Assembly: GCF_002979865.1 (NCBI RefSeq)
Contig: NZ_PCPZ01000003.1
Span: forward strand, 62,001-126,000
From: Arthrobacter sp. MYb214
Lineage (GTDB): Bacteria; Actinomycetota; Actinomycetes; Actinomycetales; Micrococcaceae
Reading direction: 5' to 3'
Length of the DNA stretch: 64,000 nt
Made by a program: the position numbers and the translations under genes. Under the pieces are notes generated by a model that saw only the letters and a program-made list of their open reading frames with translations, was not told the origin of the DNA and searched no databases. Positions 39,896 through 45,088 of this stretch are shown here, in pieces (within the stretch, counting starts at the first letter, position 1; each line of letters begins with the position of its first letter).

Positions 39896-42800
39896 TCACT
39901 CCATCAGCGCCAGGAAATCATCGGCGCTTAACGCAGCACTCTGCGCGGCTTGGGCAGTCTCTCCCAGGACATCATTGAACAGCTGCGTCTTCTTGGCCTG
40001 CAGCGCGAGCACCTTGGATTCGATGGTGTCCTTTGCCACCAAGCGATACACATAGACCGGACGAGTTTGCCCAATGCGGTGGGCCCGGTCAATAGCCTGG
40101 GCTTCGGCCTGCGGGTTCCACCATGGGTCCAGCAAGATGCAGTAGTCGGCGGAAGTGAGATTAATGCCGAAGCCGCCGGACTTCAGCGAGATGAAGAAGA
40201 CCGGGAAATCTCCCTCGCTGAAACCGTCAATCAGTTCCTTGCGCTTTGGGCCAGTGGTGGACCCATCAAGGTATCCGTGCTCAATGCCCAGCTCTTCAGC
40301 GACGTCGCGTGCCTTGGCCAAGAAACTGGTGAATTGGCTGAAGACCAGAATCTTATGCCCTTCAGAAACCGCGTCCCCCATGAGTTCGCGCAGCATTTCC
40401 AGCTTCGCGCTCGGAGCATCGCCCTCGCCTACCAAGGACGGATCCAAGGCCAGCTGGCGCAGCAAGGTCAGCGATTGGAGAATCTGGAAGCGATTCGAAT
40501 CAACGTCGTCAACCAGCCCCAGAACTTCTTGCCGCACACGCTGGAAGCGGCGGTCATAAGCTTTGCGGTGCCCCGGCTCCAGTTCGACTTCCAGCACCTG
40601 CTCGGTCTTCGCCGGCAACTCTGGAACGACCTGTTCCTTGGTACGGCGCAGCACGAACGGACGCAGTCGGCTCTTCAGGCGCTCCAGGCGCTCCTGGTCT
40701 CCGTCGGCAATGGGCTTCTGGTAGTTGTCCTTAAAGGACTTCGCACCGCCCAGCAGGCCTGGTGCAGCCAGTGAGACCAACGCCCACAGTTCCAGCAGGT
40801 TGTTTTCCATGGGAGTGCCAGTGACCACGAATTTGCACGGCACTGGCAGCTGCCGGGCCTGCTTGTAGCCTTTGGAGGCATGGTTCTTCAGTTGCTGGGC
40901 CTCGTCCATGATCATGACGTTGAATCCGGCGGCTTCAAAATCCTCATAGGCCAGGCGGAAGATCGTGTAGCTGGTAACTACCAATTGGGCGTCACCGATC
41001 TGCGACGCCATGCTTTGGCCGTTCTTTCTAGCTGTTGAAGTGATGCCGGTGACTCTCATCTGCGGCGCAAATCGCTGCGCCTCATTGATCCAGTTGCCCA
41101 CCACCGAGGTAGGAGCCAGCACCAGGAATTTCTGGGCAGGATCCTCGACGCGCGCTTGTTCAAGGCAAGCCAGCAACTGGACGGTCTTGCCCAGACCCAT
41201 ATCGTCGGCAAGGACGCCACCGAGATCATGGGTACGCAAGAAGTTGAGCCAGGATAGGCCGTGGCCCTGATACGGGCGCAGTTCAGCGTTGAACGTTTCC
41301 GCTAGCTGGACCGGCTGCATTTCTTCACCGCTTTGCAGCGCCTTCATGGTCTGCAGCCACTGGTTGTGCTGGGCTTCGATAATGCCCAGATCCACCAGTT
41401 CTTGCCACCAGTCGATGCTCAACCTATGGATGCGGATCGTATCGCCCTGCACCGTGCCCAGCTCCCCGGCCTCTGATATCAGCTGGCGCAGCTGCGTGAA
41501 ATCTGCACCATCAATCGGGATCACCGTAAGGTCATCGAGGACGAGATACTCATCTTGCTTGGTCAAGGCCTCCAGCAGCAGTGGGAACGGGACCTTGGTC
41601 TCGTCCAGGAGCACTTCCACAGACAAGTCGAACCAGTCCCCCGTGCTTTCGCCGGCTTCGACACTGACAGCGGCCGGGGCGTGGCTGATCCGGTACTTCG
41701 GCAGCCTGTTCTGCTCTTCAACGACCACATCGGGATGCTCTGCCAATAGCGGCAACGCGTAGACCAAGAAATCGATGGATTCGGAGGTGCTGAATTCCTT
41801 CGGCGGGAAGATTCCTGAAGAGGTCAGTTGCCCCAAGGAAGCCTGCGCGCCGAGCTTGTCCTGCACCGAAGCAGCAATTTCCTTTTCCACGGCATACTGG
41901 CGGGGTCCCGCGGAGGCGTACTCCCAGGAATAGCTCACGGTCAGCGGAGTTCGGATGCTCTCCAGGGACAGCTTGAGGCTGGGGCGTGCTGGAACAGGGA
42001 TGCTGTAGCTGTCATCCTCGCTCTTCAACGGTGCCATCAGGCGCAATCGGTCCAGGTGCTGGCGCTCGAAAAGCTCAACGCCTTCCTGCGGGATGGATTG
42101 CGCACCGGATTCAATAAATGTGGCCAGTTCCTTCGTGACCGGTTCAGCGAACCGGGCCAAACCGATTTCCCTGGCCTTCGGCAAGGGGCTGGACGCGTAA
42201 GCCAACAAGGTCGGCGGCGTGCCTATGGGCAAGAGGTAGACGTGCTCTTCGCTCGGCCCGCGCAGCTTCCCTTCCATGCTCAGGCCATGTTCACCGCGAC
42301 GCACATCCACGTGTGCCATGGCTGGTTGCTCGCTGAACTCCACCGGGGCCTTGGCCGTAGAACCGCCGTTGACGATCTGCACTCCAGCTTCACGCAGGGC
42401 TTCGAACGCATCCAGCAGGTCCTGGCCTGGAAGATCCATCAAGGAGATCCACTCCTTGGGATCCCACGAATGGCGATAAGTATCTTGTTCAACGTGTTCA
42501 CGCAACCGGTCCAGTTCAACGACCGCACGACGCTGCTTCTTGGAGAACCGCGTATCAAAAGCAACATTGCGCCAGCTGATCCCGGTTTGGATCCAGGGGC
42601 TCTTGGTGCCCTGGCGGGCCGGGCGTGCCTGCAAGGTCAGCGCGTCCTCGCCGCCATAACGCGGTTCGCTTACCACTTTCAGGATCAATCCCAGCGGTTC
42701 TTCGGCAACCAGCGGCTCATCGGAAATGACTGGAAGCAGACGGTCAAGGGTACGTTCCCACTGCGGCTTGCTATTGCGTTTCCAAGCGTGGGGATCCACC

Positions 42801-43111
42801 CCGGAGTCGGAGACGAAAAAGCCCTGGTCTTCTTCGGTGGTGACCTCAATGAGCAAGGCGGCGACATCTTCACAGGACTGAACCCCCGGATGCTTGCCGC
42901 AGAAGCTGGTGAAGCTGATATTGCCCTCGGTGATTTCCAATTGGGCCATCACCGATTCACGCAGCACCACACCGGAGATGCGGGTAGATCCCGGTTGCAT
43001 TACCCGGTTGGCGATCTGCACTTTTCCGGAATCACACAGGAATTGGCCCAGGTTGTATTCGGATTCGGTCACCAAGGTCTGGGCCGCAGAAAGTGTCAGC
43101 TGGAATTCCAT
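39896..43111 (-). CDS. SNF2-family DEAD/DEAH-box ATPase (RapA/HepA-like), 1071 aa
   Basis: Swi2/Snf2 ATPase of the bacterial HepA type. The N-terminal 560 residues carry regulatory segments with no recognised name. The RecA-like core begins [15 protein letters not shown]; Walker A is [17 protein letters not shown] near 650, motif II DEAQ in [12 protein letters not shown], and [15 protein letters not shown] motif III. The helicase C lobe has [65 protein letters not shown] (broken here as one continuous region near 985-1030) and the final [17 protein letters not shown]. Such proteins remodel protein-nucleic-acid complexes, for example recycling RNA polymerase. It is monocistronic, with no phage-defence partners visible. 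Confidence 0.9.
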   Translation of the reverse strand: [1071 protein letters not shown]

Positions 43112-43250: not shown

Positions 43251-43336
43251 GAATCACGAGTTCCACTCTTTGAGCCCTGGCTGAGTGGACGGCAACCCTC
43301 CTGCGTCATTGTGCGGGGTGCCCCAGGTGAAGATTC
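43251..43336 (+). ncRNA. SAM-IV type S-adenosylmethionine riboswitch
   Basis: P1 is GAATC (43251-43255) with GATTC (43332-43336). P2 is TCCACTC (43262-43268) with GAGTGGA (43283-43289); its loop carries GCCCTGGC. The conserved core CGGCAACCCTCC follows, then P3 closing with GCGGGGTG and the 3' element CCCCAGGTGA. CCTGG in the P2 loop can pair with CCAGG of the 3' element, the expected pseudoknot. This order and the core sequences match the actinobacterial SAM-IV (and related SAM-I/IV) aptamers. A downstream hairpin (43339-43361) and the sequence pairing CCCCTT with the ribosome site AAGGGG suggest translational control of the OsmC-like gene. Confidence 0.85.
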
Positions 43337-43338
43337 GA

Positions 43339-43404
43339 CGCATCTTGAACGCCAAGATGCGTAAGCGATGGCGCCCCTTGCGCCAGAAAGGGGATCAATT
43401 CCCC
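43339..43404 (+). promoter_or_regulatory. Expression platform of the riboswitch
   Basis: Hairpin cgcatctt, 7 nt, aagatgcg (43339-43361), followed by CCCCTT (43374-43379) that can pair with AAGGGG (43388-43393), the only plausible ribosome site of the gene starting at 43405. GGGG/CCCC flanking the start codon is a further competing pairing. This is inference from complementarity. Confidence 0.55.
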
Positions 43405-43956
43405 ATGACTAATGCAGCATCTGCCCCAACCGTATCCGAAGACCGCGCACAGCGCCTGCAGGAAGCAGGCAAGGGCTGGGGCGAACGAATTTCGGCTGCC
43501 CCGCAAAGTGCCCAATTGACTTTCACCGTCGAGGGCGAAGGCTTCGATTCGGTAGCCAGCAACATTGTCTCCGGCAAGCACACCTTCCAGGTCGACGAGC
43601 CAGCTGCCCTGGGCGGCAGCGACCTGGCCGCAAGCCCCGTGGAATACGCGCTCGGAGCGCTCATCTCCTGCCAGGTTGTGGTCTACCGCTTGTACGCGCA
43701 GAACCTCGGCATCCAGGTGGACGACGTGAAGATCCAGGCCAATGGCCACCTCGATGTCCGCGGACTCTTCGGCATCGACCAGACCATCCGCCCCGGCTTC
43801 TCGTCGGTGGATCTGGACATCCGGATTGCCGGACCGGAATCAGCTGAACGCTATGAAGAACTGCGCCGCGCAGTGGATGCACACTGCCCGGTGCTGGACC
43901 TCTTCGCCAATCCGGTGCCCGTGACATCCGCGGTAAGCATCGCAGAGACCAACTAG
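43405..43956 (+). CDS. OsmC/Ohr-like family protein under SAM riboswitch control, 183 aa
   Basis: Start at the ATG at 43405; the upstream in-frame start would lie inside the riboswitch. The OsmC fold is shown by FTVEGEGFDSVASNIVSGKHTF, SPVEYALGALISCQVVVYRLYAQNLG and VDAHCPVLDLFANPVPV. Both reactive cysteines of the family are kept (Cys89 and Cys161). Classical Ohr and OsmC proteins reduce organic hydroperoxides, but the SAM-responsive leader points to sulfur metabolism, for example handling of persulfides or sulfur transfer in methionine or cysteine supply; this is inference. It is monocistronic, ended by the bidirectional hairpin at 43975. Confidence 0.87.
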   Translation: MTNAASAPTVSEDRAQRLQEAGKGWGERISAAPQSAQLTFTVEGEGFDSVASNIVSGKHTFQVDEPAALGGSDLAASPVEYALGALISCQVVVYRLYAQNLGIQVDDVKIQANGHLDVRGLFGIDQTIRPGFSSVDLDIRIAGPESAERYEELRRAVDAHCPVLDLFANPVPVTSAVSIAETN

Positions 43957-43974: not shown

Positions 43975-44014
43975 GCACCGCGGCGGCCCCCGACTTCAGG
44001 GGCCGCCGCGGTGC
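43975..44014. terminator. Strong bidirectional terminator
   Basis: gcaccgcggcggcccc, 8-nt loop, ggggccgccgcggtgc: 16-bp GC-rich perfect stem between convergent stop codons. Confidence 0.85.
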
Positions 44015-44032: not shown

Positions 44033-45088
44033 CTATTGCCCCAGGAAGTTCAGCAGGACTTTGCCGGAGCGAGCCGAATCCTTGGCCGTTTCGAAGGCTT
44101 CAAGCGCATCGGCGACCGGGAACTCGTGGGTTACCGCCTCGGAAACCTGCAGTGAACCGTCGGCCAGGGCAGCAAGCACATGGTCGATTTCGTCGTTGAA
44201 GCGGAAGGAACCAACCAGTTCCAGCTCGCGGGTAATAGCCAGCGAAATGAGTGCGGGTTGTTCTCCTGAGGGCAGCAACCCGACCATGACCACTCGACCG
44301 CCGCGCACGGCACCGCGCACGGCGGAGGCCAACCCACGGAAGTTGCCGCTGGCCTCGATCACCACGTCCGCGCCCACCTGGGCAAGAGCTTCCTGGTCAT
44401 CGGCGCGCAAAGTTGAAGTGGCACCGAGTTTCCCGGCGATTTCCAACGGCTTCTCGTGCATGTCCACTGCGATGATTTCTTTGGCTCCGGCACGCTTGAG
44501 CACTGCTACAGCGAGAGCTCCGATCGGCCCAGCACCAATAACCAGCGCCTTCTTGCCGGCGACTTCACCGGCGCGCGACACCGCATGCCAAGCAACCGCA
44601 GCCGGTTCTGCCAGTGCCGCATCACGCAGTGCTAAGCCAGCAGGCAGCTCACGCAGCATGCGTGATGGCAGGTTCACTTCGCGGGCGAATGCGCCCTCGG
44701 CGTGCGGGTAGCGGGCGGCCGAGCCCAGATAGGTGCACCCCGGGGAAAGATTCGGGCGGTCGGCCGGGTAGGGTTCCCCGGTCTCGCCTGGTGTTGCCGG
44801 GTGCACGGCGACTTTGGTTCCGGCTGCCGGCCCGCTGCCGTCAGCGGCGGCCTGCATGACGGTCCCGACGATTTCATGCCCGAGAACCATTGGAGCCTCG
44901 AGGATCGATTCCCCGGCGGCGCCGTGGCTCCAGTAATGCAAGTCTGATCCGCAAATACCGCCGTAAGCGATGGCAACGCGTGCTTCATCTGCTCGCGGCG
45001 CTGCCAGCTCGATTTGTTCAATACGCAAATCATCGGCTGCATGGGCCACGACGGCCAACGTGCTGGTGGCGAGGGAATTAGACGACAA
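44033..45088 (-). CDS. idnD: Zinc-dependent alcohol dehydrogenase, L-idonate 5-dehydrogenase type, 351 aa
   Basis: Medium-chain dehydrogenase. YGGICGSDLHYWSHG carries the catalytic-zinc Cys, LGHEIVGTV the zinc His-Glu pair, and PNLSPGCTYLGSAARYPHAEGAFA the following segment; the usual four-cysteine structural zinc loop is reduced, as in idonate and sorbitol dehydrogenases. The coenzyme motif ALVIGAGPIGALAVAVLKRAGA is near 175, with VDMHEK ending the next strand. L-idonate 5-dehydrogenase oxidises L-idonate to 5-keto-D-gluconate. It overlaps the SDR gene by 11 bp, matching the idnD-idnO pair of the idonate pathway. No idonate transporter or gluconate kinase is adjacent. Confidence 0.8.
   Translation of the reverse strand: MSSNSLATSTLAVVAHAADDLRIEQIELAAPRADEARVAIAYGGICGSDLHYWSHGAAGESILEAPMVLGHEIVGTVMQAAADGSGPAAGTKVAVHPATPGETGEPYPADRPNLSPGCTYLGSAARYPHAEGAFAREVNLPSRMLRELPAGLALRDAALAEPAAVAWHAVSRAGEVAGKKALVIGAGPIGALAVAVLKRAGAKEIIAVDMHEKPLEIAGKLGATSTLRADDQEALAQVGADVVIEASGNFRGLASAVRGAVRGGRVVMVGLLPSGEQPALISLAITRELELVGSFRFNDEIDHVLAALADGSLQVSEAVTHEFPVADALEAFETAKDSARSGKVLLNFLGQ

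Follow-up and report, generated by a model that had tools for sequence, protein, structure and literature searches.

A conserved SAM-IV riboswitch upstream of an OsmC-like gene in Arthrobacter sp. MYb214 and a probable role of the encoded protein in sulfur assimilation

Proteins of the OsmC family mostly carry annotations that point to peroxide or osmotic stress. Why, then, should a gene of this family be preceded by a riboswitch of a type that responds to S-adenosylmethionine (SAM)? The question was raised by a preliminary description of a 64,000-nucleotide stretch of the Arthrobacter sp. MYb214 genome (contig NZ_PCPZ01000003.1, positions 62,001 to 126,000, hereafter the window), in which a SAM-IV type riboswitch was proposed to control an osmC-like gene and a role in sulfur metabolism, not in organic peroxide defence, was suggested for the gene product. 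The riboswitch, its expression platform, the distribution of the riboswitch–gene pair and the protein were analysed in turn, and coordinates are collected in table 1.

A covariance search, named in the preliminary description as a check on the riboswitch, was run over the whole window with cmscan. The plus-strand leader of the osmC-like gene matched the SAM-IV model RF00634 over its full length (model positions 1–116) with 81.2 bits (E = 6.7e-13; gathering score 38), and this was the sole Rfam match above threshold in the window. P1 (GAAUC/GAUUC), P2, the CGGCAACCC core, the GCGGGGUG/CCCCAGG element and the pseudoknots were found where they had been placed, with no disagreement in coordinates. 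By covariance, the aptamer is a real member of SAM-IV, sharing its core and pseudoknots, and the riboswitch itself is of a known kind. It differs from reported SAM-IV riboswitches in its target, since an OsmC-like gene was not found reported as a target of this class in the literature searched. Four SAM-IV copies were found in the source genome; the best-scoring one precedes metY and another precedes a flavin reductase gene.

Table 1. Features of the osmC-like locus (window coordinates).
Feature	Position	Strand	Support
SAM-IV aptamer: P1, P2, P3, P4 and two pseudoknots	43252–43373	+	RF00634, 81.2 bits; covariation
P1 5' strand GAAUC (partner 43332–43336, GAUUC)	43251–43255	+	identical in 29/29 leaders
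Tail-pseudoknot strand GCGUCAU in the P3 loop (partner 43368–43374)	43303–43309	+	six-pair core paired in 93% of cells
Shared strand AUGGCGC, paired either with the P3 loop (tail pseudoknot) or with 43380–43385 (hairpin)	43368–43374	+	
Anti-Shine–Dalgarno strand CCCCUU (partner AAGGGG, 43388–43393)	43374–43379	+	compensatory changes
GCGCCA, 3' arm of the competing hairpin (43369–43374/43380–43385)	43380–43385	+	29 leaders
Shine–Dalgarno region GAAAGGGG	43386–43393	+	sequence; 11 bases 5' of ATG
osmC-like gene, 183 aa, ATG at 43405; C89, C161, motif S77-P78-V79-E80	43405–43956	+	
GC-rich hairpin in the gap between the osmC-like gene and the convergent minus-strand gene	43975–44014	.	T run on minus-strand side only

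The expression platform was examined in an alignment of 29 leaders, in which the named helices were compared with 500 shuffles and with partners slid out of register. Aptamer helices and pseudoknots were kept in 94.8% of 840 pair cells, as against 30–47% of cells with slid partners, and the covariation score of 0.269 (0.130 when shuffled) was reached in 0 of 500 shuffles; the conserved core, helices and two pseudoknots of SAM-IV are kept in the relatives. The six-pair core of the tail pseudoknot (43304–43309 with 43368–43373) was paired in 93% of cells and showed C-G/U-G and A-U/G-U exchanges. An alternative form of this pseudoknot, CAUUG with CGAUG, was replaced by GCGUCAU with AUGGCGC, the core of which held in nearly all leaders. 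The competing hairpin AUGGCGC/GCGCCA was paired in 95.3% of cells (20–54% when slid) with little covariation, there being little variation available for such a test. Hairpin and tail pseudoknot are both conserved in the 29 leaders and are mutually exclusive. Within the Shine–Dalgarno region, AGGGGA gave the best duplex with the 16S tail, and the helix formed over this site by the anti-Shine–Dalgarno strand showed compensatory C-G/G-C and C-G/U-A exchanges; both partners differed in 23 cells, and none of 500 shuffles reached the observed score. In Arthrobacter relatives its strands read CGUG and CACG.

These elements fit a translational OFF switch comprising conserved aptamer, pseudoknot and anti-Shine–Dalgarno helix. 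SAM would stabilise the aptamer together with the tail pseudoknot GCGUCAU × AUGGCGC, which would use up one strand of the AUGGCGC/GCGCCA hairpin and leave CCCCUU free to pair with AAGGGG (OFF); without SAM the hairpin would form and the anti-Shine–Dalgarno strand would be kept in its loop (ON). Translation of the osmC-like gene would thus be repressed when SAM is plentiful, and its product would accumulate when SAM runs low, and with it methionine or sulfur. The design is supported by sequence comparison and not by energies. When the pseudoknot strand was blocked, the predicted pairing of the ribosome site with the anti-Shine–Dalgarno strand rose from 0.003 to 0.18, and mean Shine–Dalgarno accessibility over the 29 leaders was predicted to fall only from 0.49 to 0.43. 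In the window sequence, the GGGG of the ribosome site was folded into a local hairpin (GGGGA/UCCCC) beside the AUG whether the strand was blocked or not. The case for the platform rests on covariation because folding with the strand blocked gave no clear release or capture of the Shine–Dalgarno region in the window sequence, and masking of the ribosome site is only weakly supported by predicted folding energies. Of the platform proposed in the preliminary description as able to mask AAGGGG, the pairing with CCCCUU is possible and is backed by covariation, but the folding energies of the window sequence do not support it.

We infer the ligand, the direction of control and the dynamics of the platform from these comparisons. 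Sequence cannot give ligand and direction with certainty, and the folding showed no clear Shine–Dalgarno release, which leaves some room for an aptamer that binds another ligand (e.g. SAH) or switches the other way round (ON with ligand). Such a reading is very improbable against a match of 81 bits to a SAM-validated family with its core kept, a further SAM-IV of the same genome in control of metY, and an anti-Shine–Dalgarno helix that is the ligand-side alternative.

Other SAM-IV riboswitches of the source genome and its relatives precede metY, flavin reductase, class-V aminotransferase, rhodanese and acyl-CoA-dehydrogenase-like genes. In an Arthrobacter-group genome, further targets were an acyl-CoA-dehydrogenase-like gene (locus L182, 1690–2928), DszC/SfnB-like on our own reading of its product, a class-V aminotransferase gene (L178, 1655–3031) and a rhodanese gene (L194, 1844–2206). 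A separate group of SAM-IV matches (L004, 1501–1614 on the minus strand, 76.8 bits; also L187, L184 and L185) carried an altered core, ACCAACCC and UUCGGAUGAGGAAG, and its P2-loop pseudoknot appeared to covary. These copies, from Glutamicibacter, precede a small unknown open reading frame and a gene that we read as a ferritin-like/VIT1-type membrane protein; their ligand is possibly altered.

Conservation of the riboswitch–gene pair was determined in 149 Micrococcaceae genomes. SAM-IV was present in 148 of them, at about 1–8 copies per genome, and an orthologue of the window protein was present in 29 (57–100% identity); one further genome contained a distant paralogue only (L144). In 24 of the 29 genomes, spread over 7 genera, a SAM-IV of 66–85 bits lay directly 5' of the orthologue on the same strand, a linkage far beyond chance because there are only about 1–8 SAM-IV copies per genome of this family. 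Among the relatives, the leader was present in Glutamicibacter nicotianae, G. soli, G. protophormiae, G. uratoxydans, several Arthrobacter and Paeniglutamicibacter terrestris; judged by the genus groups, the source genome itself most likely belongs to Glutamicibacter. The five orthologues lacking SAM-IV belonged to three Yaniella genomes and to two genomes of an otherwise positive genus. In one genome of the same genus as the source, the orthologue match (L120, around 1501–2025) contained one internal TAG stop, explained perhaps by a pseudogene or by an alignment that overruns the end of the gene.

The Microbacteriaceae orthologue loci that were scanned contained no riboswitch, and SAM-IV was absent from 5 of 5 such genomes. 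In these genomes, tandem direct repeats (GTTRCG-N4-RTGACG, period of 10 bases) were observed ahead of the orthologue, upstream of position 5001 in L047, L042, L017, L049 and L020, and the start codon lay a few bases 3' of a -10-like box. This arrangement suggests control by a protein operator, and an mRNA without a leader, instead of a riboswitch. A motif search of the five genomes returned repeated tandem matches at the osmC loci only, and no regulon could therefore be drawn.

The osmC-like gene of the window is a single-gene unit, because its upstream neighbour (39896–43111, minus strand) is divergent and its downstream neighbour (44033–45088, minus strand) is convergent. The hairpin between the convergent genes is notable for its 18-pair stem, its count not being above that of shuffles. 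The gene is solitary in Micrococcaceae, and when 80 orthologous loci were clustered by neighbourhood, no neighbour was conserved across families; genomic context in Micrococcales therefore yields no functional clue. A solitary gene, which some relatives express without SAM-IV, might be taken to mean that a real riboswitch merely survives, or happens to lie, beside a gene that has no function specific to sulfur. Conservation of aptamer and platform in 7 genera speaks against such an accident, as do an independent linkage to SAM-I in another class and the SAM-V riboswitch of Pelagibacter (both below), and this explanation can be given very little weight.

Distant members of the protein clade were collected by a phylum-wide profile search, followed by a search of the class to which the genome of locus L215 belongs, a different class of the same phylum. 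At L215 a SAM-I riboswitch (RF00162, 65.3 bits), the osmC-like gene and metY follow one another in this order. Clade members were found in 48 of 296 genomes of that class, and SAM-I riboswitches of 65–73 bits lay 5' on the same strand at 16 of the 30 loci fetched from it. The gene directly 3' of the osmC-like gene was metY at L215, L241, L243 and L250, the identity of MetY being confirmed for L250 and L243; at L259, metY is upstream and divergent. An APS kinase gene adjoins the clade member at L214, elsewhere in the phylum. The osmC-like gene has thus kept its place in a SAM regulon, and the arrangement recurs with a riboswitch of a second class.

At 11 loci, the next gene encodes a flavin-dependent monooxygenase related to MSMEG_0569, with scores below the model cut-off. 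This MSMEG_0569/ArsO-related gene follows the osmC-like gene at L249, L251, L255, L258, L259, L260 and L261 (also L238, L239, L242 and L257), and at the first seven of these the pair is under SAM-I. The osmC-like/monooxygenase pair is a candidate organosulfur-cleaving operon.

The window protein matched PF02566 (OsmC) with 60.1 bits (cut-off 27.5) and contains C89 and C161, in keeping with the OsmC-like protein with both cysteines first described. Its AlphaFold2 model had a pLDDT of 90.8, and the closest solved structure was Geobacter GSU2788 (2opl; TM 0.79–0.80, 25% identity, Foldseek E 1.5e-12), which differs in having Ser at the position of the second cysteine. The best NCBIfam match was to NF041052, OsmC-related (seleno)protein, at 77 bits and yet below the cut-off of 95. 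At E <= 1, the protein matched none of TIGR03561 (Ohr), TIGR03562 (OsmC) and NF008009 (YhfA), whose cut-offs are 88.85, 85.8 and 138. C89 was present in 42 of 42 sequences and C161 in 41 of 42. The window protein thus shares with Ohr/OsmC peroxidases the PF02566 fold, the invariant cysteine at the peroxidatic position and the second of their two redox cysteines, which is kept in the SAM-IV-linked members of its clade, but it has P-V-E where Ohr and OsmC have N-P-E, and it matches neither of their models. E. coli YhfA is alike in its P-x-E motif (P-M-E) and two cysteines, but is only 21% identical, belongs to a family whose model is not matched, and lies on a separate branch of the tree. In YhfA proteins, whose activity is described as unknown, the Arg and Glu that support the peroxidatic cysteine are reported to be missing (PMC8945050; PMC5962072).

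In a tree of 159 proteins, the whole clade was placed apart from Ohr, OsmC and YhfA, with moderate support for the deep nodes (0.74–0.89). One half of the clade contained the SAM-IV-linked members among unlinked Micrococcales members, and the other contained the SAM-I-linked members. The second cysteine was kept in 28 of 28 SAM-IV members and was Ser in 16 of 16 SAM-I members. By sequence, the clade is distinct from the Ohr/OsmC peroxidases. The source genome also encodes an N-P-E paralogue, a YhfA-like paralogue and a canonical Ohr (TIGR03561, 176.6 bits against 88.85) adjoining a MarR-type gene; because of this separate Ohr, organic peroxide defence has its own gene. With no Ohr/OsmC model match and the P-V-E motif, this makes it likely that organic peroxide defence is not the role of the window protein, as had been proposed.

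The main rival explanation is that the protein remains an ordinary antioxidant, namely a thiol peroxidase which SAM control turns on when sulfur is short. Induction under such conditions would make sense because low-molecular-weight thiols are then scarce, and peroxidases of the OsmC type, being lipoyl-dependent, can do without them. Lipoyl systems serve as reductants of OsmC and Ohr (PMC8945050), and in Pseudomonas antioxidant defences are reported to be induced by sulfur starvation (PMC12581299). The OsmC fold, and both cysteines in the SAM-IV-linked members, would suit such an enzyme. The Val at the catalytic Glu position (P-V-E) and the lack of a match to the Ohr and OsmC models would not, and the clade has metY and APS kinase genes as neighbours. 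With either cysteine replaced, Corynebacterium glutamicum Ohr is reported to lose its activity (PMC4486171), and because both are needed there, the classical peroxidase cycle with two cysteines is an unlikely candidate for a function common to the SAM-IV and SAM-I groups, the latter with Ser at the second position. The antioxidant explanation was accordingly judged unlikely, if less so than the alternatives discussed above.

A role in sulfur assimilation is well supported by regulation and context, as far as these can be read from sequence, and bears out the sulfur-metabolism role first suggested: distant relatives are under other SAM switches and have methionine and sulfate gene neighbours, and the protein therefore probably helps to obtain sulfur and does not simply destroy peroxides. 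The reading preferred here, to which a probability of roughly 0.7 is given, is that SAM-IV represses translation of the osmC-like gene when SAM is plentiful and that the protein works in sulfur acquisition as a thiol enzyme or a sulfur carrier. We infer for its chemistry a centre on C89 and a place next to MetY, where it would probably handle a sulfur compound, either oxidised or persulfidic, ahead of the entry of sulfur or methanethiol into methionine. A broader proposal is put forward tentatively, at slightly less than even odds: that the OsmC-fold clade is a dedicated sulfur-assimilation component, in which a single cysteine acts on a persulfide, sulfenate or organosulfur compound alongside MetY and flavin monooxygenases, and that control by SAM-IV, SAM-I and perhaps SAM-V was acquired independently.

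Nothing on SAM-IV or SAM-I with osmC in Actinobacteria was found in the literature searched. The nearest precedent is Pelagibacter, in which a SAM-V riboswitch precedes osmC and osmC was the top induced transcript in sulfur-limited exponential growth (mRNA 50-fold, protein 4.5-fold), explained by the authors as a peroxidase (PMC5069961). It resembles the window in having a SAM riboswitch over an osmC gene and adds induction of that gene by sulfur limitation, but riboswitch class and phylum are different, and the likeness drawn here is one of arrangement. In Rhodococcus erythropolis MI2, an OsmC-like protein encoded near a sulfide:quinone oxidoreductase was induced by an organic disulfide (PMC5157978). 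Apart from the Pelagibacter SAM-V precedent, a recurrent SAM-regulated OsmC clade appears to be undescribed in the literature searched. If the clade is repeatedly under different SAM riboswitch classes and beside metY or APS kinase genes, many annotations of its members would name the wrong process, and a general explanation may follow for the so far unexplained induction of Pelagibacter osmC under sulfur limitation.
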